A stretch of 34,949 nucleotides of DNA from contig JACNFR010000046.1 of NCBI GenBank assembly GCA_014384555.1, positions 1-34,949 on the forward strand, given 5' to 3'. Below the pieces are notes generated by a model. The model saw only the letters and a list, made by a program, of their open reading frames with translations, was not told the origin of the DNA and ran no database searches. Shown one piece after another: positions 1 through 19,738 of the stretch. Each line of letters begins with the position of its first letter. The stretch's first letter is position 1. The stretch is from Candidatus Nitrosopumilus sp. (lineage in GTDB: Archaea > Thermoproteota > Nitrososphaeria > Nitrososphaerales > Nitrosopumilaceae). The position numbers and the translations under genes are program-made.

Positions 1-42
1 AAGTTAGATCTTTCTAAATGTTAAAAAAATAATATAAAAAAA

Positions 43-7534: not shown

Positions 7535-8394
7535 ACAATTCTATCAAATGGCTTCATAACAGATGGAATTTCATCCAAAAGATCCATAGAAGTCATATGT
7601 AGTCCTAATTTCTTTTGAGCAGATTTGCCTGCCAATCCATTGATGAATGTGGCAGCAGCTGCAGATTCCAAAGGATTCCTATTATTTGACAATAAACCAG
7701 CAACTAATCCAGATAAAACATCACCTGTTCCACCAACAGTCATTGCAGGAGTTTTTTTCTCATTAAGATATGTAGTAGAACCATTTGAAACAATATCTGT
7801 TGCGCCTTTTAATAAAACGGTAATTCCAAATTCTTTTGCCTTTTTCTCTACAAGTTTTATTCGTTCATTTTTAGAATTTGGCGGAGAATCTCCAAATAAC
7901 CTCTTAAACTCTCCAGCATGAGGAGTCACTACAACATTTTTGTTTGCCAATAATGGTAATACTTCAGGAATTAATGCACTTGCGTCTAAAGATAATCGTA
8001 CATCTCTATCGAGTAAAGATTTTACAAAATGTAACAAAGAATTCCTTTCTTGGATTGCAAGCCCCATTCCAATTGTAGCTGAATGGAGATTACGAGGTAA
8101 AGCACCAATTAGCTTGTTTACAGCACCCAGAGTTAATTTTTGATCAACTAAAGGAATCACAATCAGATTAGGAGAAATAGCACGTGTGGGAGTGACGTTA
8201 ATTTTAGGAACTGAAGTATAAACAAGATCAGTGCCACATTTCAATGCAGCAAGTGAAGACAAAATAGGGGCACCATGATAAATATAACTTCCACCTACAA
8301 CCAGAACAATTCCATTATCACCTTTTCTGGATTTTGCTTTTCTAGCAGGAATAAATTTTTTCACAATAGATAAAGTTAGATTTTTTCTTACCAT
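7531..8394 (-). CDS. nnrD: ADP/ATP-dependent NAD(P)H-hydrate dehydratase
   Basis: NnrD repairs hydrated NAD(P)H (NADHX) at the expense of a nucleotide. The 287-aa protein matches the ribokinase-like dehydratase domain: the GDNGIVLVVGGS segment, the DASAL strand, TPHAGEFKRLFG, LLKGATDIV, and the nucleotide-binding VGGTGDVLSGLVAG near the C-terminus. The fused NnrE epimerase domain found in many bacterial and archaeal versions is absent, so the epimerase, if present, is encoded elsewhere. A GATTTATTCGG box sits about 26 nt before the ATG. It is translationally coupled to the M20 gene downstream. Confidence 0.92.
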   Translation of the reverse strand: MVRKNLTLSIVKKFIPARKAKSRKGDNGIVLVVGGSYIYHGAPILSSLAALKCGTDLVYTSVPKINVTPTRAISPNLIVIPLVDQKLTLGAVNKLIGALPRNLHSATIGMGLAIQERNSLLHFVKSLLDRDVRLSLDASALIPEVLPLLANKNVVVTPHAGEFKRLFGDSPPNSKNERIKLVEKKAKEFGITVLLKGATDIVSNGSTTYLNEKKTPAMTVGGTGDVLSGLVAGLLSNNRNPLESAAAATFINGLAGKSAQKKLGLHMTSMDLLDEIPSVMKPFDRIV

Positions 8395-8444
8395 ATAGGA
8401 TTCTCTAAGAAATGGCCGAATAAATCTTGTTTTGTATTAAATGA

Positions 8445-9410
8445 CTAGGATAATTTTTTAGACATCTTTTTGGATGTTTTTGTAGAAGGTTTTTTTGTAG
8501 TTTTTGTAGGCATTTTTTTGGTTGTTTTTGCAGTTGTTTTTGCAGTTGTTTTTGCAGTTGTTTTTGCAGTTGTTTTTGCAGTTGTTTTGATAGATTCAAC
8601 AGCTGTTTTTTCGGTAGTTTTTTTACCAGACCTATTAAAAAATGCCTTTCGAGCAAAGCAAAGATAGGTGGTGTGACCAATACCTTGGAAAGAATGTCGG
8701 GTTTTTCCTTCTCTAGCTTCTATATTTCGAATAATATGTTCAGTTGATTCGATATCAGTGAATTCATTTTCAACTAGAGCCATAGTTAATTTTTCTAATT
8801 GATTCATAGTAGGACAAATTGCAAAAATGCTACCACTTCCTTTAAGCATCTTTCTAACTTGAGGAATCACAACCCAAGGATCACCTAAATCAATTAATGC
8901 GACATCCATGTTTTCTAAAGGCATTTTTTTCGCAGTCTTTAAATCCAAATTATGTTGGGTCACATATTTTGAAACTCCCGCTTTTTTGATATTTTTCTCA
9001 GCTATTTTCATAAATTTTTCATCGACATCGAAGGTGTATACATGTCCACGAGGTTTCACAACACTTGCAACAAAAGAAGTTAAAGAGCCACTACCAGTTC
9101 CAATCTCCAAGATTTTTTGGCCATCGCCAATTCCAGCTCTTGCAATAATGTAACCAATATCTTTTGGATAAACAATTTGGGTTCCATGTTGAATTCTCAT
9201 TACATAATCATACATAGTAGGTTCAAGAAGATAGACATACTTGTCCTTGTTCGTAATTAATTTGGAACCGTATTCTTTGCCAATTGCATCTGAATGTTTT
9301 AGAATTCCAATATGAGTATGGAATGATTCATTTTTTGAAATTTTTGCTAACCATTTTTTTGAATCATTGTAGAAGAATAAGACTGGAGAATTTTGTTTAA
9401 TTTTAGCCAT
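8445..9410 (-). CDS. trmI: TrmI-type tRNA (adenine-N1)-methyltransferase with H1-like tail
   Basis: The 321-aa protein has the TrmI/TRM61 layout: a small N-terminal beta domain (about 1-75), then a class I SAM-dependent methyltransferase with LEIGTGSGSL (102-110), the acidic strand end TFDVDEKF, and the DLGDPW motif that replaces the usual NPPY/DxPD element in m1A methyltransferases. Archaeal TrmI methylates A57/A58 in the tRNA T-loop. The catalytic part ends near residue 258. The last 63 residues are an unusual extension made almost wholly of Lys, Thr, Ala and Ser, with repeated KTTA followed by TKK/TSKK blocks, like histone H1 tails. The tail is probably disordered and binds nucleic acid; this is inference. 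No frameshift is seen at the junction. Confidence 0.88.
   Translation of the reverse strand: MAKIKQNSPVLFFYNDSKKWLAKISKNESFHTHIGILKHSDAIGKEYGSKLITNKDKYVYLLEPTMYDYVMRIQHGTQIVYPKDIGYIIARAGIGDGQKILEIGTGSGSLTSFVASVVKPRGHVYTFDVDEKFMKIAEKNIKKAGVSKYVTQHNLDLKTAKKMPLENMDVALIDLGDPWVVIPQVRKMLKGSGSIFAICPTMNQLEKLTMALVENEFTDIESTEHIIRNIEAREGKTRHSFQGIGHTTYLCFARKAFFNRSGKKTTEKTAVESIKTTAKTTAKTTAKTTAKTTAKTTKKMPTKTTKKPSTKTSKKMSKKLS
8521..8580 (-). repeat. 12-bp tandem repeat coding KTTA
   Basis: Five exact copies of the 12-mer GTTGTTTTTGCA (plus-strand reading) lie head to tail inside the 3' part of trmI, with a degenerate copy after 8580. On the coding strand each unit encodes Ala-Lys-Thr-Thr. The copies are identical at synonymous positions, which points to recent slippage or expansion rather than old selection on the protein alone. 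Confidence 0.95.
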
Positions 9411-9495
9411 ATATTTTGCCTAGAAATTTTAGATAAGAATCTACTGGTTTTTCCAGATGTTTTAGATATTAGCCAATTTTGAATTGAGTAGAGGT

Positions 9496-9511
9496 CAATA
9501 CGCTTATGTTG
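9496..9511 (+). promoter_or_regulatory. CAATACGCTTA promoter element, copy 1
   Basis: The sequence CAATACGCTTATGTTG matches the first 11 nt of the element repeated at 9880 and 10062. The CTTATGTT part is centred about 26 nt upstream of the GTG at 9532, so it is placed as BRE/TATA for a leaderless transcript. It is less well conserved after position 11 than the other two copies. Confidence 0.5.
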
Positions 9512-9531
9512 ATAACTCATAGAGAAAATTT

Positions 9532-9639
9532 GTGAGTATCAGAACAAGCGTGTTTTCAAGAAAAGAACTAGTAGTGATTGTCGGGATTTCAGTCATTGTT
9601 TCTTCAATTTTGTATGTTTCTTATGTAACCATGAAATAA
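9532..9639 (+). CDS. 35-aa single-span membrane microprotein
   Basis: A GTG-started frame encodes 35 residues: a short basic N-terminus (SIRTSVFSRKE) followed by one uninterrupted hydrophobic helix (about residues 13-32, LVVIVGISVIVSSILYVSYV) and a three-residue tail ending in Lys. The positive-inside rule would put the N-terminus in the cytoplasm. It is preceded at leaderless spacing by the CAATACGCTTA promoter element that also serves two further genes downstream. Function is unknown. The combination of clean topology and matching promoter makes a chance ORF less likely, but there is no homology evidence available to me. Confidence 0.5.
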   Translation: MSIRTSVFSRKELVVIVGISVIVSSILYVSYVTMK

Positions 9640-9679
9640 TAGATAATTCTTAAAAATAGACAAGACAAGATGATAGTTA

Positions 9680-9868
9680 TTGAATTTCAATTGTGTTTTT
9701 CCATCCTGTAATTACAAACGCAACAACATAGAAGAAGAAGAATTCCTAAAACATTTGAAAGAAAAACATATTGATGAAATTGAGGATGTTTCCAGCAAAA
9801 CGTGTATGCCAGTTAAAATTGTAGAAATGATGACCATTTCAAACTCTAAGGTATTCATTAATTCATAG
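9680..9868 (+). CDS. Small zinc-finger-like protein
   Basis: This 62-aa protein has one Cys/His cluster with the spacing C-x4-C-x14-H-x4-H (C5, C10, H25, H30). That resembles a C2H2 finger with lengthened loops, including a helix EEEEFLKHLKEKH supplying the histidines. The second half is an amphipathic region without known motifs. The start is TTG at 9680, with the box TTCTTAAAAA centred about 28 nt upstream. This box does not share the CAATACGCTTA element of its neighbours. A DNA/RNA- or protein-binding adaptor role is plausible but only inferred. Confidence 0.6.
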   Translation: MNFNCVFPSCNYKRNNIEEEEFLKHLKEKHIDEIEDVSSKTCMPVKIVEMMTISNSKVFINS

Positions 9869-9878
9869 ATTCTAAATT

Positions 9879-9901
9879 CCAATACGCTTAAGTTTACAAT
9901 T
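9879..9901 (+). promoter_or_regulatory. CCAATACGCTTA promoter element, copy 2
   Basis: CCAATACGCTTAAGTTTACA and the next three bases (ATT) are identical over 23 nt to the copy at 10061-10083. The CTTAAGTTT core is centred about 28 nt before the TTG at 9919. Upstream CCAATACG extends beyond a normal TATA box, so it may be a shared BRE or an activator site. Confidence 0.65.
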
Positions 9902-9918
9902 AGTATAAGCAAATTGAA

Positions 9919-10047
9919 TTGGAAGAAGAATATCGTGAAAAAATGATTAAACAGAAAAAAGAATTTGAAGAATGGAAAAAGAAAGAAGGAGATTCAGATC
10001 TTGTATATAATGAAAAAGACAACAAAGAAAGAAAACCAGAACAGTAG
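9919..10047 (+). CDS. 42-aa highly charged microprotein
   Basis: A TTG-started frame of 42 codons encodes an almost wholly charged helix. It begins EEEYREKMIKQKKEFEEWK, then has a Lys/Glu and Asp-rich tail with a single aromatic Tyr and ends RKPEQ. There are no Cys residues, no hydrophobic core and no membrane segment; it would be a free helix or bind a partner. The 23-nt promoter element directly upstream is shared with the 141-aa gene that follows 51 nt later. Similar Lys/Glu-rich small proteins are often missed in annotation. Function unknown. Confidence 0.5.
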   Translation: MEEEYREKMIKQKKEFEEWKKKEGDSDLVYNEKDNKERKPEQ

Positions 10048-10060
10048 AGTCAAAATATCA

Positions 10061-10083
10061 CCAATACGCTTAAGTTTACAATT
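10061..10083 (+). promoter_or_regulatory. CCAATACGCTTA promoter element, copy 3
   Basis: This is a perfect 23-nt match to the copy at 9879-9901. Its CTTAAGTTTACA core is centred about 26 nt before the TTG at 10099, the leaderless position. The copy starts 14 nt after the stop codon of the preceding microprotein, so the gene after it has its own promoter despite the tight spacing. Confidence 0.65.
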
Positions 10084-10098
10084 TTATGCAAATTATTA

Positions 10099-10524
10099 TT
10101 GAGTGAAGATTCTAAATCAATATCTTTCAAAGAATTAGAGAAAAAACTAGATAGAGAAATAAAAAAAGTTTCAGAGGAATTAATTAAGGAAAAACTAGAC
10201 AAGAAAAAATTAGACTATGACACAATATCTTTAATTCTCGAAGTTTTTGCTAAATCAAATTTTCAATGGAAACCAGAACATTTTGAAACTTTTGATTCTG
10301 CTCCTGAAAAATTTAGGGGCAAGACATTGCCTAAAAATAATAGAGAATGTGTCATGCTCGGGATTAGGTTAGGAACCATGAGAGGCAAGATAATCTACAA
10401 TTTGCGCAATAGTCAAATCACAGAAAAGCAACGACAGGAAATAGATGATTTGACATGGAATTTAGTATGGTATTCGTGGCAAGAAGCAAGAATACTTCAT
10501 AATCGTTCAAATGAAAAAAAATGA
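10099..10524 (+). CDS. Hypothetical helical protein (141 aa)
   Basis: I do not recognise the family. The N-terminal 45 residues are a charged, coiled-coil-like helix (KELEKKLDREIKKVSEELIKE). The remainder is probably alpha-helical, with conserved-looking aromatics (FQWKPEHFETFD, LTWNLVWYSWQEARILHN) and a basic GIRLGTMRGK segment. The C-terminal WNLVWYSWQEAR helix is unusually Trp-rich. There is no signal peptide, membrane span or Cys motif. Expression from the shared CCAATACGCTTA promoter ties it to the two microproteins upstream. Length, codon use and promoter support a real gene. Confidence 0.7.
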   Translation: MSEDSKSISFKELEKKLDREIKKVSEELIKEKLDKKKLDYDTISLILEVFAKSNFQWKPEHFETFDSAPEKFRGKTLPKNNRECVMLGIRLGTMRGKIIYNLRNSQITEKQRQEIDDLTWNLVWYSWQEARILHNRSNEKK

Positions 10525-10949
10525 AGGAATTCAATATGAATCAAAATATTATTTAAAAACAAACAGAAAATAGAAGAAATTCAAAGTCTTAATTACTGTA
10601 AAAATGGCAATCTTATGCTGATGATTATTACAACGGGTTCTATCTGATTTCCTCAAATTTGATGAATATTGCCGAATTATGAAGCTGTTTCTCATTTAGA
10701 TATGGATAATGTTGATCGGACGTTTAGAAATTTAACCTAAAAGTAATTATTTTTGATTCCAGTTTTTTAACAAAAACATCATCTTAACAGATTCAATGAG
10801 TCAGAGACATCTCGCGGTGTTAGCTGGAAGAGCCCAATGCTCACATAAACTAGTTAATGCATTTCAGAGTCTCCACAGTAAAGGAGACTGACTTTTTTTC
10901 CGTGATGGCGCAAACAGTATTTTAATACCAAACACAACAATAAATCAAA
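10525..10949. other. 425-bp gene-free stretch with structured segment
   Basis: No convincing protein gene longer than about 31 codons lies here. The first 270 bp contain C/D-box-like scraps (TGATGA near 10619, CTGA near 10644, TGATGA near 10659) that do not assemble into a good C/D guide RNA. The segment from about 10796 to 10900 is locally richer in G+C than its surroundings and ends in a perfect hairpin plus T-run (described separately). The last bases hold the TATA-like box TATTTTAATA (10918-10927) for the zinc-ribbon gene at 10950. Confidence 0.7.
10796..10899 (+). ncRNA. Candidate small RNA or 31-aa ORF ending in hairpin and T-run
   Basis: A TTTTTTAAC box (about 10763-10771) is centred 28 nt upstream of an ATG at 10796, whose frame runs 31 codons to a TGA at 10889-10891. 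Inside, GAGC-CCAAT-GCTC can form a small hairpin, and AGTCTCC-acagtaaa-GGAGACT (10868-10889) forms a perfect 7-bp stem. This is followed at once by seven T residues (10893-10899), like an intrinsic terminator. Either a structured small RNA or a very small protein would fit; the two are not exclusive. G+C is higher than in the flanks. No known RNA family is recognisable to me. Confidence 0.35.
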
Positions 10950-11270
10950 TTGACAGAAATTCAACTAGCAGGATCAGGCGGATGGATTAATGCAGATCTA
11001 ACAGACGAACAAGTAACTAAATCAAAACTTGTTCCAAATATGGATAAACATTTTTTGGCATCACTTGAAAAACTGGATACTGCAAAGATGTCAAAACATT
11101 TTTGCAAACAATGTGATTCTGAATTTGAGGGACCTACTCAAATACAAATCGAGGAGCAGCCAAATGAGACAGTTGCAGATGGATTGATTTTGATAGAAAG
11201 AGGTCAATACACGTGTCACAAATGTAACTATATCATTGGAGAATACAGAGTATTTCAGAAAAAAGAGTAA
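10950..11270 (+). CDS. Small zinc-ribbon protein
   Basis: The 106-aa protein has an N-terminal region without clear motifs that includes a GSGGWINADLTDEQ segment, and a C-terminal zinc ribbon. The ribbon has one CxxC at HFCKQCD (about residues 52-55) and the second at YTCHKCNY (about 89-92), separated by an acidic loop. Such proteins often bind nucleic acid or the transcription/translation machinery, but no specific family is clear. The start is TTG at 10950, with the TATTTTAATA box centred about 27 nt upstream, so the mRNA is probably leaderless. It is the first of three consecutive plus-strand genes with individual TATA boxes. Confidence 0.75.
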   Translation: MTEIQLAGSGGWINADLTDEQVTKSKLVPNMDKHFLASLEKLDTAKMSKHFCKQCDSEFEGPTQIQIEEQPNETVADGLILIERGQYTCHKCNYIIGEYRVFQKKE

Positions 11271-11349
11271 TAGTAAATCCAAAACCTCATTGTTTTTACC
11301 AGCCTAAATAATGCGTATTAATTAAATACAGCAATTTTTTACAAACAGC

Positions 11350-11487
11350 ATGTCAAATCAAAAATGCGTATCATGTGGAATTGGTTTCTTTTCCCCAACG
11401 GGTTCAGACAAATGTTCCAAATGTGCAGGAACAGAATCCCAAGGTAATGAAGGTCATGATTCCTGTGGTTGTGGACACAGCCATTAA
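11350..11487 (+). CDS. 45-aa Cys/His-rich microprotein
   Basis: An ATG-started frame of 45 codons encodes a protein with two CxxC pairs (C6/C9 and C22/C25) forming a probable zinc ribbon, followed by a His/Cys tail ending SCGCGHSH. The tail is suggestive of a second metal site for Zn, Cu or Ni. ATTAATTAAATAC (11318-11330) is a TATA-like box about 25 nt upstream, giving a leaderless ATG. Seven Cys residues in 45 residues make chance unlikely. It stands alone between the zinc-ribbon gene and the 170-aa gene. Metal binding is inferred from residues; the role (metal chaperone, ribosome-associated or regulatory) is unknown. Confidence 0.75.
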   Translation: MSNQKCVSCGIGFFSPTGSDKCSKCAGTESQGNEGHDSCGCGHSH

Positions 11488-11536
11488 TTCCTTTTTTCTC
11501 TAACAGGCATATATTGAACAAGAAATAATCATATCC

Positions 11537-12049
11537 ATGGCAAAATCATCAGAAGAAATGAAAAACCTAGTTGAGGATTTCATCAAAATTACAAATATCA
11601 ATTACGAAGATCAAACTGAAAAAATTCGAGAAAAAAGTAAGATTGTCGACTGGCAGTTCCACGTGGGAACAAATGTGATTGTTAGTAAAAATGCAAACAG
11701 AGAAGACAGAATTCATGTGAATGTGAATATGCGCTTTCCACCGCAAGATGCAAAATTGCTGGTAATGAAAAACCCATCCTTTTCAAAAGCAATTATGGAG
11801 ATCAGTGAAATTTGTACAATATGTAACGTAGGTCACCAATGGATTAAAGATGGTGAAAACATTGCAGGGTTAGCAATATTTTCTCATATCGATGAGCAGG
11901 TTTTAGATAGAGTTTCATTTCACAATGTATGGGATAGTGTTGCAAGGGTCTCAGGACACGTTCAAAAAATTCTTCGTTCTAATTTTAGTGGATTTTCAGC
12001 ACAAGGCAATACAACAGATGCCACAATTGATAAATCGATGTATGGATAA
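11537..12049 (+). CDS. Conserved hypothetical protein (DUF2299-like?)
   Basis: The 170-aa soluble protein has an N-terminal helix (SSEEMKNLVEDFI), a beta-rich middle (WQFHVGTNVIVSKNANREDRIHVNVNM) and helices that end in a flexible Ser/Thr/Gly tail. The pattern of helix, antiparallel sheet and helix resembles the type-III-secretion-chaperone/YbjN-like fold to which archaeal DUF2299 proteins are assigned; I cannot confirm that family by eye. Two Cys are present (CTIC), with no second pair. A GCATATATTG box is centred about 26 nt before the ATG. Function unknown. Confidence 0.7.
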   Translation: MAKSSEEMKNLVEDFIKITNINYEDQTEKIREKSKIVDWQFHVGTNVIVSKNANREDRIHVNVNMRFPPQDAKLLVMKNPSFSKAIMEISEICTICNVGHQWIKDGENIAGLAIFSHIDEQVLDRVSFHNVWDSVARVSGHVQKILRSNFSGFSAQGNTTDATIDKSMYG

Positions 12050-17395: not shown

Positions 17396-17818
17396 ATGGC
17401 TACAAAAAGAAAAGCTGCAACTAAACGTAGATCAACTAGAAAGTCTACCGCAGCAGCTCCAAAAAGAAAAGCTACTAGAAAAACTGCAGCTAAAAAAGCA
17501 GCTCCAAAGAGAAAAGCAGCACCAAAACGCAAAGCAGCTCCAAAGAGAAAAGCAGCAACTAGAAAAGCAGCTCCAAAGAGAAAAGCTACTAGAAAAACTG
17601 CAGCTAAAAAAGCAGCAACTAGAAAAGCAGCTCCAAAGAGAAAAGCTACTAGAAAAACTGCAGCTAAAAAAGCAGCAACTAGAAAAGCAGCTCCAAAGAG
17701 AAAAGCTACTAGAAAAACTGCAGCTAAAAAAGCAGCTCCAAAGAGAAAAGCAGCACCAAAACGCAAAGCAGCTCCAAAGAGAAAAGCAGCAACTAGAAAA
17801 GCAGCAAAAAGACGATAA
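17396..17818 (+). CDS. H1-like Lys/Arg/Ala repeat chromatin protein
   Basis: The 140-aa product uses only seven residue types: Ala, Lys, Arg, Thr, Pro, Ser (two) and the initiator Met. There are no acidic and no bulky hydrophobic residues, so it cannot form a normal globular core. The units AAPKRKA, ATRK and TRKTAAKK recur and resemble C-terminal tails of histone H1 and bacterial H1-like proteins (Hc1/AlgP type), which bind and compact DNA. A role in chromosome compaction or in polyphosphate/RNA binding is inference. The ATG at 17396 and stop at 17818 are clear. The opposite-strand and alternate-frame ORFs here are shadows of the repeats. An inverted repeat lies upstream. Confidence 0.85.
   Translation: MATKRKAATKRRSTRKSTAAAPKRKATRKTAAKKAAPKRKAAPKRKAAPKRKAATRKAAPKRKATRKTAAKKAATRKAAPKRKATRKTAAKKAATRKAAPKRKATRKTAAKKAAPKRKAAPKRKAAPKRKAATRKAAKRR
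17551..17730 (+). repeat. Three exact 60-bp tandem repeats in the H1-like gene
   Basis: Bases 17551-17610, 17611-17670 and 17671-17730 are identical, each encoding 20 residues. In addition, a 107-bp direct repeat flanks the array: 17465-17571 matches 17699-17805 exactly. Identity at synonymous positions shows recent expansion or gene-conversion-like homogenisation. Confidence 0.95.
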
Positions 17819-18073: not shown

Positions 18074-19738
18074 TCAATAAAGATAACTCATTAATTTAAT
18101 TTGTTCTTCAGTAGAGATTACATTTTTGTTAGTCAATATTTCCAGTAAATCTTTGAAAAGAGCTTTCTGTTCGGAAGACATTCCTCCTGAAGGACCTTTT
18201 TCTCCGGGTGGACCAGGTGGACCTCTTGGACCTGCAGGACCAACTGGGCCTTGTCCCCCAACTGGGCCTTGTTCACCTATTGTACCAATAGGACCAGTAG
18301 GACCACGTTCACCCTGCGGGCCTTGAATTCCTTGTGGACCTTGTGGACCTTTTTCTCCTGAAGGACCTGTTGTTCCACGTTCACCCTGGGAACCTTGCGG
18401 ACCTTGTGGACCTTTTTCTCCGGGTGCGCCTAATGGACCTGTTTGACCTTTTTCTCCAAGAGGACCAATGGAACCTTTGTCACCTTTTTCTCCTTGTGGA
18501 CCAGGTACTCCTGTTAATCCTTTAGAACCGGCTGGACCTTGTGGACCTTGTGGACCTTTTTCTCCAAGAGGACCTTCAGGACCTTTGTTTCCTTTTTCCC
18601 CCATTGGACCAGGTGGACCTAATTGACCTTTGTCACCAAGAGGACCTGTTGGACCTGTTAATCCTTTATCACCATGAGGACCGGGTGGACCTAATGGACC
18701 TTTGTCGCCGGATGGACCTATAGGACCTTTGTCACCAAGAGGACCAGGTCCGCCCTGAATTCCTTTTTCACCTTGAACACCGGATAATCCAGTAGGACCT
18801 TTGTCGCCAAGAGGACCTGTTGGACCTGTTAATCCTTTATCACCAATTACACCTTGCGGACCTTTGTCACCTTTTTCTCCAGGGACACCTCTTAATCCAG
18901 ATGCGCCTTTGTCACCGACAGAACCTGTTGGACCTTTTTCTCCTTTGTCACCAAGAGGACCTTTTAATCCACTTGGACCTTTGTCACCAAGAGGACCTGT
19001 TGGACCTTTTTCTCCTTTGTCACCGGGTGGACCTGAAATTCCTTTGTCACCTTTATCACCTTTATCTCCAGTAATTCCTTTGTCACCAGTTAATCCTTTA
19101 TCACCAGAAAGACCTTTGTCACCTTGTGAACCTTTGTCACCAGTTGCTCCTTTGTCACCAGGTGAACCTTTGGGACCTTCAGGTCCTTTAATTCCAGGTG
19201 GACCTTGAGGGCCAGGTGGACCAGGTGGACCTTTGTCACCAGGTGGACCTGTCGGACCAGATTCACCTTTGTCACCAGGTGGACCTGTCGGACCATCATT
19301 TGGTTTTGCAGAACGTGTAGGTTTTTGAATATCAGAAATTGTTTTTGTTTCAGGTTTTGTTTCAGGTTTTGTTTCAGGTTTTGTTTCAGGTTTTGTTTCA
19401 GGTTTTGATGTTGATCTAGCTAAAGGAACATCAAAAACAGTATGTAATGAAGAAAATAAATCAGTGACAACAATCCAAACACCATCAAGATTAGCAATGG
19501 ATGATGGAAGTGGATTTGTAGGAGAACCCAGAGTTTCAGAAAATATACCATCTTTTACTCGAAGATGAAAATTCCCCTTCCATAAAGATGAAAATTGTTT
19601 TAAACGAATAGCATCATCAGATGGTTTACTATCAGTAATGGCAATTTGAGCTTCATACACACCTGATTGTTTGAAAGGTGCCTGTCCTTGAATCTCTAAT
19701 CGTGGCTGAGATGACACAATCGTTTGTGGATATTTCAA
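18074..19738 (-). CDS. Collagen-like G-X-Y repeat protein
   Basis: The 554-aa product has four parts. Residues 1-108 form a beta-rich N-terminal domain with no recognised family. Residues about 112-132 hold five PETK repeats. Residues 149-519 are 123 consecutive, uninterrupted Gly-X-Y triplets. Residues 520-554 are a helical tail ([16 protein letters not shown]). Triplets are rich in GDKG, GEKG, GPTGP, GPPGP and GPQGP, so Lys-Gly-Asp/Glu ion pairs could stabilise a triple helix without hydroxyproline. No signal peptide or transmembrane anchor is visible, so location is unknown; a surface fibre or an intracellular structural role are both possible. The TTG at 19738 is the only usable start, as a TAA lies five codons upstream in frame. 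It stands alone between convergent and divergent neighbours. Confidence 0.92.

Follow-up and report, generated by a model that had tools for sequence, protein, structure and literature searches.

The window, by which we mean the whole stretch of 34,949 nucleotides that we analysed, is contig C9 of a 1.39-Mb Nitrosopumilus-type genome (G000). It carries three forward-strand copies of a short element, each in front of a small gene. The first copy, CAATACGCTTATGTT, lies at 9496..9510 and consists of a block at the BRE position and a block at the TATA position (E 0.00125 in the profile search described below). It is followed by a 35-aa single-TM micro-gene at 9532..9639, whose GTG start lies 36 nt after the first C of CAATACG and which belongs to a family of 9 found with the same promoter class. 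The second copy, CAATACGCTTAAGTT, at 9880..9894 (profile E 3.6e-7), leads into a 42-aa charged micro-gene at 9919..10047 with a TTG start at +39 and a family of 8. The stop codon of this gene is only 14 nt from the third copy, again CAATACGCTTAAGTT, at 10062..10076 (profile E 2.3e-6), which precedes the TTG start at +37 of a 141-aa helical protein (10099..10524). This protein has 14 relatives in Nitrosopumilus-like genomes. Directly abutting the second copy is an upstream element, TAGATTCTAAATTC, at 9866..9879 on the forward strand, one mismatch away from the consensus TAGATTCTAAACTC; it is the only one at a core copy in the window. Between the first and second copies lies a further forward-strand ORF of 62 aa (9680..9868) with a pattern of C and H residues like that of a small zinc finger. 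The sequence GATAATTCTTAAAAA at -36 of this ORF is TATA-like, and we left the ORF out of the class because the CAATACG block is missing there.

The preliminary description of this DNA reported a 23-mer at 9879 and 10061 whose first 11 nt recur at 9496, and both observations hold. The two 23-mers are identical over all 23 nt, and CAATACGCTTA (11 nt, without the leading C) is found at 9496, followed by TGTT instead of AGTT. Over the 15-base core, the copy at 9496 differs by one base from the consensus. The three small genes are indeed found behind the copies, but the reported distance of 26-28 nt needs a slight correction, as we measure 25-28 nt from the end of the 11- or 12-mer. When up to 2 mismatches to the 12-mer are allowed, the window holds 6 occurrences against 1.52 expected, a number reached in none of 100 shuffles. 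Three of these are the good copies and the other three are chance-like, with 2 mismatches each.

Upstream of the first copy, at 8445-9410 on the reverse strand, there is a SAM-dependent methyltransferase whose lysine-rich C-terminal tail consists of TTAKTTAKTT-like repeats. By resemblance we presume it to be of the tRNA m1A type. Downstream of the 141-aa gene, the intergenic stretch 10796-10900 (forward strand) has a G+C content above that of its surroundings and ends in a T run, making it a candidate non-coding RNA or terminator. An Rfam scan of 8000-12000, which includes this stretch, gave no match at the gathering score.

Genome-wide sites and proposed promoter anatomy

A genome-wide search, as the preliminary description had proposed, finds 15 exact occurrences of CAATACGCTTA and none of the reversed pattern. 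The element is therefore confined to the cluster only as far as the window is concerned; beyond it, it belongs to a class that is genome-wide as well as genus-wide. Of the 15-base core CAATACGCTTAAGTT the genome has 10 exact copies, and 20 when one mismatch is allowed. We read 30 sites individually; in 22 of them an ORF of 20 aa or more begins 34-41 nt past the first C. We also searched with a 36-position profile, for which 49 of the 59 candidate sites were aligned (alignment A1). Left out were the own-genome sites L023, L028, L030 and L033-L037 and the family locus L046, which have no ORF in register, and the family locus L056, which has a 23-aa ORF only. The seeds were thus partly chosen by ORF position, and 48 of the 49 had an in-register ORF. 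The profile matches 27 places in the genome with E<0.07, and the next values are 1.28 and 6.95. Three of the 27 are probably strain copies, because the small contigs C19 and C40 carry one and the same three-cassette array at 94-95% identity, and are probably assembly strain variants. The core sequence varies far less than the ordinary promoters of the genome do, and its sites, about 25 in number, stand apart as a discrete set.

The distance between the element and the start codon is similarly constrained. We pooled 153 distinct sites from the window's own genome, from the family and from orthologues of the 141-aa gene. A start codon is found at +33..42 in 134 of them, in 80 exactly at +36, while other windows of 10 nt hold start codons in 11-54 of the 153 sites. 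An ATG stands at +36 in 58 pooled sites; most other offsets have 1-5 and the maximum among them is 13. Because the seeds had been partly selected by ORF position, the spacing was recounted on the non-seed sites, where the start is in register in 86 of 104 and absent from it in 18. The sites fetched by the profile alone give a similar picture, with a start at +35..41 in 60 of 68, exactly at +36 in 38, and eight that miss.

Counted back from the start codon at this constant distance, CAATACG occupies -36 to -30 and CTTAAGTT the next positions, -29 to -22, with CATAATT coming after the CTTAAGTT block. In archaeal promoters a BRE is followed by an AT-rich TATA box whose centre lies about 26 nt before the transcription start, and leaderless transcripts start close to the start codon. 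Ordinary genes in this genome have a weak TTTAAA-like TATA signal in a register that matches CTTAAGTT. The order of BRE and TATA box is also described for archaeal promoters in the part of PMC11065993 available to us. We regard the element as a variant of what is already known, namely archaeal BRE/TATA promoters and promoter classes defined by TFB and TBP. In the open-access literature that we searched, we recognised no published description of the element itself.

Taken together, the element is a real, discrete and conserved promoter class serving dispersed micro-gene cassettes, which bears out the earlier proposal that a promoter element precedes the small genes. We consider it likely, at a probability of roughly 0.8, that it serves as core promoter for micro-genes that are leaderless, mostly monocistronic and together make up a dispersed regulon in Nitrosopumilus-type archaea. 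CTTAAGTT would then be a TATA box bound by a TBP, and CAATACG an extended block at the BRE position bound by a TFB. Judging from the spacing, transcription would begin at the start codon or within a few bases of it, and most micro-genes would be transcribed singly, each as a promoter-plus-ORF cassette. Since the sequence is fixed and the set of about 25 sites is discrete, we infer that the cassette genes form one dispersed regulon; their co-expression, like the leaderless start, is suggested by the spacing.

At a part of the sites the core is accompanied by the second conserved element. With at most 2 mismatches, ATTCTAAACTC lies within 32 nt upstream of the core in 48 of 152 sites, compared with a mean of 1.4 for shuffles and 1 for the reversed pattern. 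It directly abuts the core in 34 of the 152, the group from which the consensus TAGATTCTAAACTC derives, and is missing at about two thirds of sites. In a 335-kb sample of the genome the 14-mer occurs 8 times with at most 2 mismatches and its reverse 6 times, so outside the class the upstream element is at chance level; two of the eight are at class promoters. Where present (TAGATTCTAAACTC or close to it, at about a third of sites), its probable role is to bind an activator or to extend the initiation complex. We also considered, and rejected, a dyad-symmetric operator reaching from the upstream element to the TATA side: the arms pair at 6.91 of 10 positions, re-paired arms at 6.94, and 771 of 1000 re-pairings reach the observed value.

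Cassette genes, arrays and orthologues

The class sites that we collected lead into 134 proteins in 61 families, mostly tiny and unannotated; for the protein-family loci, 60 regions were fetched, which are a subset of the matches. The median ORF length is 74.5 aa, and 85 of the 132 complete ORFs are shorter than 100 aa. In the profile-only subset the median is 82 aa, with 36 of 59 ORFs below 100 aa. Single-TM peptides are typical products, as are charged helices and small proteins carrying paired CxxC motifs. Family matches are few, the exceptions being a KAP/QatA-like ATPase, a DnaJ-domain protein and a DUF1059 protein. The functions of the cassette genes are too mixed for naming one shared process. 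The label of a defence set was tried and rejected as well. Among 10 representatives scanned singly, only the KAP/QatA-like ATPase (L069) and a weak PDC-M14B match (L193) were found, and across all 61 representatives each PADLOC family with a match hits a single protein, which is too few to justify that label.

In the larger families, substitutions fall mostly on the third codon position, as in the 41-aa family, where positions 1, 2 and 3 differ 29, 22 and 124 times. The bias is weaker in the 35-aa family (299, 197 and 378). Several of the small ORFs flagged by the element have conserved reading frames. The element can serve as a finder of micro-genes, since it flags many ORFs of about 28-141 aa, a size often missed by gene callers. 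It marks a hidden gene set and defines a candidate co-regulated group of unknown proteins in abundant marine archaea.

The sites often form short head-to-tail arrays, with a separate copy of the core for every gene. The array on contig C49 has four consecutive genes, with 13, 14 and 31 nt between a stop codon and the next core. Apart from these and the 14-nt gap in the window, array gaps are longer, at 60-247 nt with one of 1185. On the same contig we also observed repeated palindrome-like TTTCTAAACTCGAATTTAGAAA elements (L079:9326, 10036 and 13016, corresponding to about 29-33 kb of G000:C49).

The 141-aa gene can be followed across genomes. The records of its 14 relatives are mostly labelled Nitrosopumilus. 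Nothing in Pfam scores above the cut-off against the protein; its predicted model is all-helical with a pLDDT of 72.7, and a fold search with this model returned nothing at E<=0.001. The core is kept 36-37 nt before the start at 10 of the 14 loci under strict counting (L134, L135, L137, L138, L139, L140, L142, L143, L145 and L147, the site in L145 having 3 mismatches), while the flanks diverge. At L144, class sites lead into 28-aa and 45-aa ORFs and one lies 172 nt upstream of the 141-aa match; counting this site would raise the conservation to 11 of 14. In L136, L141 and L146 our scan found no core site upstream of the relative. The neighbours of the gene vary over the 14 loci and include the 35-aa TM protein, the 42-aa protein or a 38-aa zinc-ribbon-like protein.

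Candidate factors and competing explanations

The exact 15-mer is present in 23 of 151 family genomes, and its reversed control in none of them. In this family sample, profile sites number 0-28 per genome in the window's genus and mostly 0-7 in other genera. Among 95 genomes of the genus, 83 have at least one site and the counts range from 0 to 33. With 27 matches in the present genome and no more than 33 in a single one of the 95, the element is far from a generic promoter in front of hundreds of unrelated genes, the case that would have spoken against the preliminary description.

The same description considered either a dedicated regulator or a local duplication of the promoter likely. The genome encodes 8 TFBs and 3 TBPs, and at G000:C22:401-1895 on the reverse strand one TFB has a TBP only a few bases behind it on the same strand. 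This operon of two basal transcription factors recurs in many genus members, among them G098, G068, G124 and G146. This TFB and its adjacent TBP, and/or a sister TFB encoded on contig C80, might read the promoter class in the manner of an alternative sigma factor. Such a factor would be added to the core-promoter explanation, and the anatomy given above would stay. In a TFB tree (81 sequences, 12 genomes), the clade of the C22 TFB (alpha) and the sister clade of the C80 TFB (beta) are found only in site-bearing genomes, with no members in G114, which has 0 motifs, or in five outgroup genera. A factor was scored as present from an identity of about 78-82% (alpha), 80% (beta) or 84% (TBP) upwards. 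For two genomes a partial match was accepted: in G182 for beta, where it lies at the start of a contig, and in G206 for alpha, where it lies beside the TBP. By this measure 68 of the 95 genus genomes have TFB-beta, 52 TFB-alpha and 50 the paired TBP. Site counts are higher where these are present, with medians of 6 against 1 for beta (p 7.9e-7), 6 against 2 for alpha (p 4.2e-6) and 7 against 2 for the TBP (p 9.7e-8), kinship among the 95 genomes being ignored. The association is weaker but persists in the 65 genomes that are at least 85% complete and of similar composition (beta p 0.012, alpha 6e-4, TBP 6e-5).

However, these statistics ignore phylogeny, and the seed sites of the profile came from one side of the tree. 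There are also exceptions in both directions: G109 has 18 sites and lacks alpha and the TBP, G172 has 32 sites and lacks beta, and G158 has alpha and the TBP and 0 sites. Near their C-termini, alpha and beta have the same DNA-reading helix as the main TFBs. Because of the exceptions, the uncontrolled relatedness and the ordinary recognition helix, we keep a dedicated factor as a rival rather than as the explanation. A regulator of this kind is plausible given the discrete class, the second upstream element and the association with TFB and TBP paralogues, yet any such factor is putative, and we consider the C22/C80 assignment possible though doubtful. Upstream of the eight TFB genes of this genome we did not see the motif, which was looked for as a sign of autoregulation; this, too, counts against a dedicated factor. 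Going one step further, the TFB-TBP operon and the sister TFB could read a private CAATACGCTTAAGTT, assisted from upstream at about a third of sites, and switch on a scattered set of rapidly turning-over micro-gene cassettes of marine ammonia oxidisers, possibly in stress or defence. As a whole we find this scenario rather unlikely.

Expanded sets of basal factors have been proposed to serve separate promoter classes in haloarchaea and ammonia-oxidising archaea (AOA), as far as the available parts of PMC2121645, PMC7554672 and PMC12448741 describe. In Halobacterium NRC-1, TbpD and TfbA are reported as a coordinate action of one TBP and one TFB (PMC2121645). AOA carry 4-11 TFBs and 2-5 TBPs (PMC7554672), and several TFBs change in their biofilms (PMC12448741). 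The available text of these two AOA studies gives no promoter sequence to any factor, whereas here a sharp class stands beside a putative factor. The role of the expanded sets in AOA is an open question in both (PMC7554672, PMC12448741), and the class of about 25 members provides a concrete test sequence for it. The class may also point to a dedicated controlling switch. Common upstream motifs are known from another ammonia oxidiser, Nitrososphaera viennensis, in which the copper-response motifs TTCSGSMTTTGWACYANT and RATTTAAABATAGATTTAAATAATAAS are reported, one of them conserved in relatives (PMC7785015). These differ from the present element in sequence and are tied to copper-responsive genes, and the part of PMC7785015 available to us does not describe them as a core promoter at a fixed distance.

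A second alternative is that the element is simply the strongest form of the ordinary promoter, gained by many unrelated accessory genes and read by no dedicated factor. The TATA-position block does share the register of the general promoters, and the genes are mixed and accessory-like. A continuum of strengths would then be expected, yet we do not find one. We scored 329 genes of at least 100 aa in the 335-kb sample, which includes the window. Two of them score at least 13 at the promoter position and none between 0 and 13, and at three control positions none scores 0 or more. With no intermediate scores, the class is not the top end of an ordinary-promoter continuum. The BRE part of ordinary promoters also has a mean score (-7.15) near that of the controls (-7.36 to -7.83), and the second conserved element abutting the core is a further point against this alternative, which we judge improbable.

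The closest functional likeness to the element is found in a virus, the rudivirus SIRV2. According to the part of PMC11065993 available to us, its early (anti-defence) genes are many small, mostly single, unannotated and unrelated genes, each with a highly similar regulatory sequence containing BRE and TATA box. Unlike in SIRV2, the genes described here are scattered over a cellular chromosome; their TATA block reads CTTAAGTT where that of the virus is TTTAWATA, and their BRE block, CAATACG, is not purine-rich (PMC11065993). We regard a local duplication of one promoter, which the preliminary description also proposed, or a mobile or viral early-gene module as very improbable: although sites cluster as short arrays of small orphan genes like those of the rudivirus (PMC11065993, as available), flanks within an array are hardly more similar than unrelated ones (0.403, n=52, against 0.380, n=11560; the three window pairs 0.33-0.39), and of the at least 120 exact matches in viral contigs, none among the matches listed has an ATG at +36, for which reason the viral module was rejected. 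We found no phage protein matching the 141-aa protein, nor any plasmid matching the locus. The viral-contig matches do look enriched in the forward direction (at least 120 against 22 for the reversed control); among the matches listed, those with an ORF near the +36 register resemble repeats of a few gene sequences rather than promoters.

Two genes for proteins with repeats were observed elsewhere in the window. At 17396-17818 on the forward strand a 140-aa histone-H1-like protein consists of KRKAAPKRKATRKTAAKKA repeats, and the DNA here is strongly repetitive on both strands. At 18074-19738 on the reverse strand there is a 554-aa collagen-like protein with long repeats of the GPPGDKG type, which is unusual in an archaeon.
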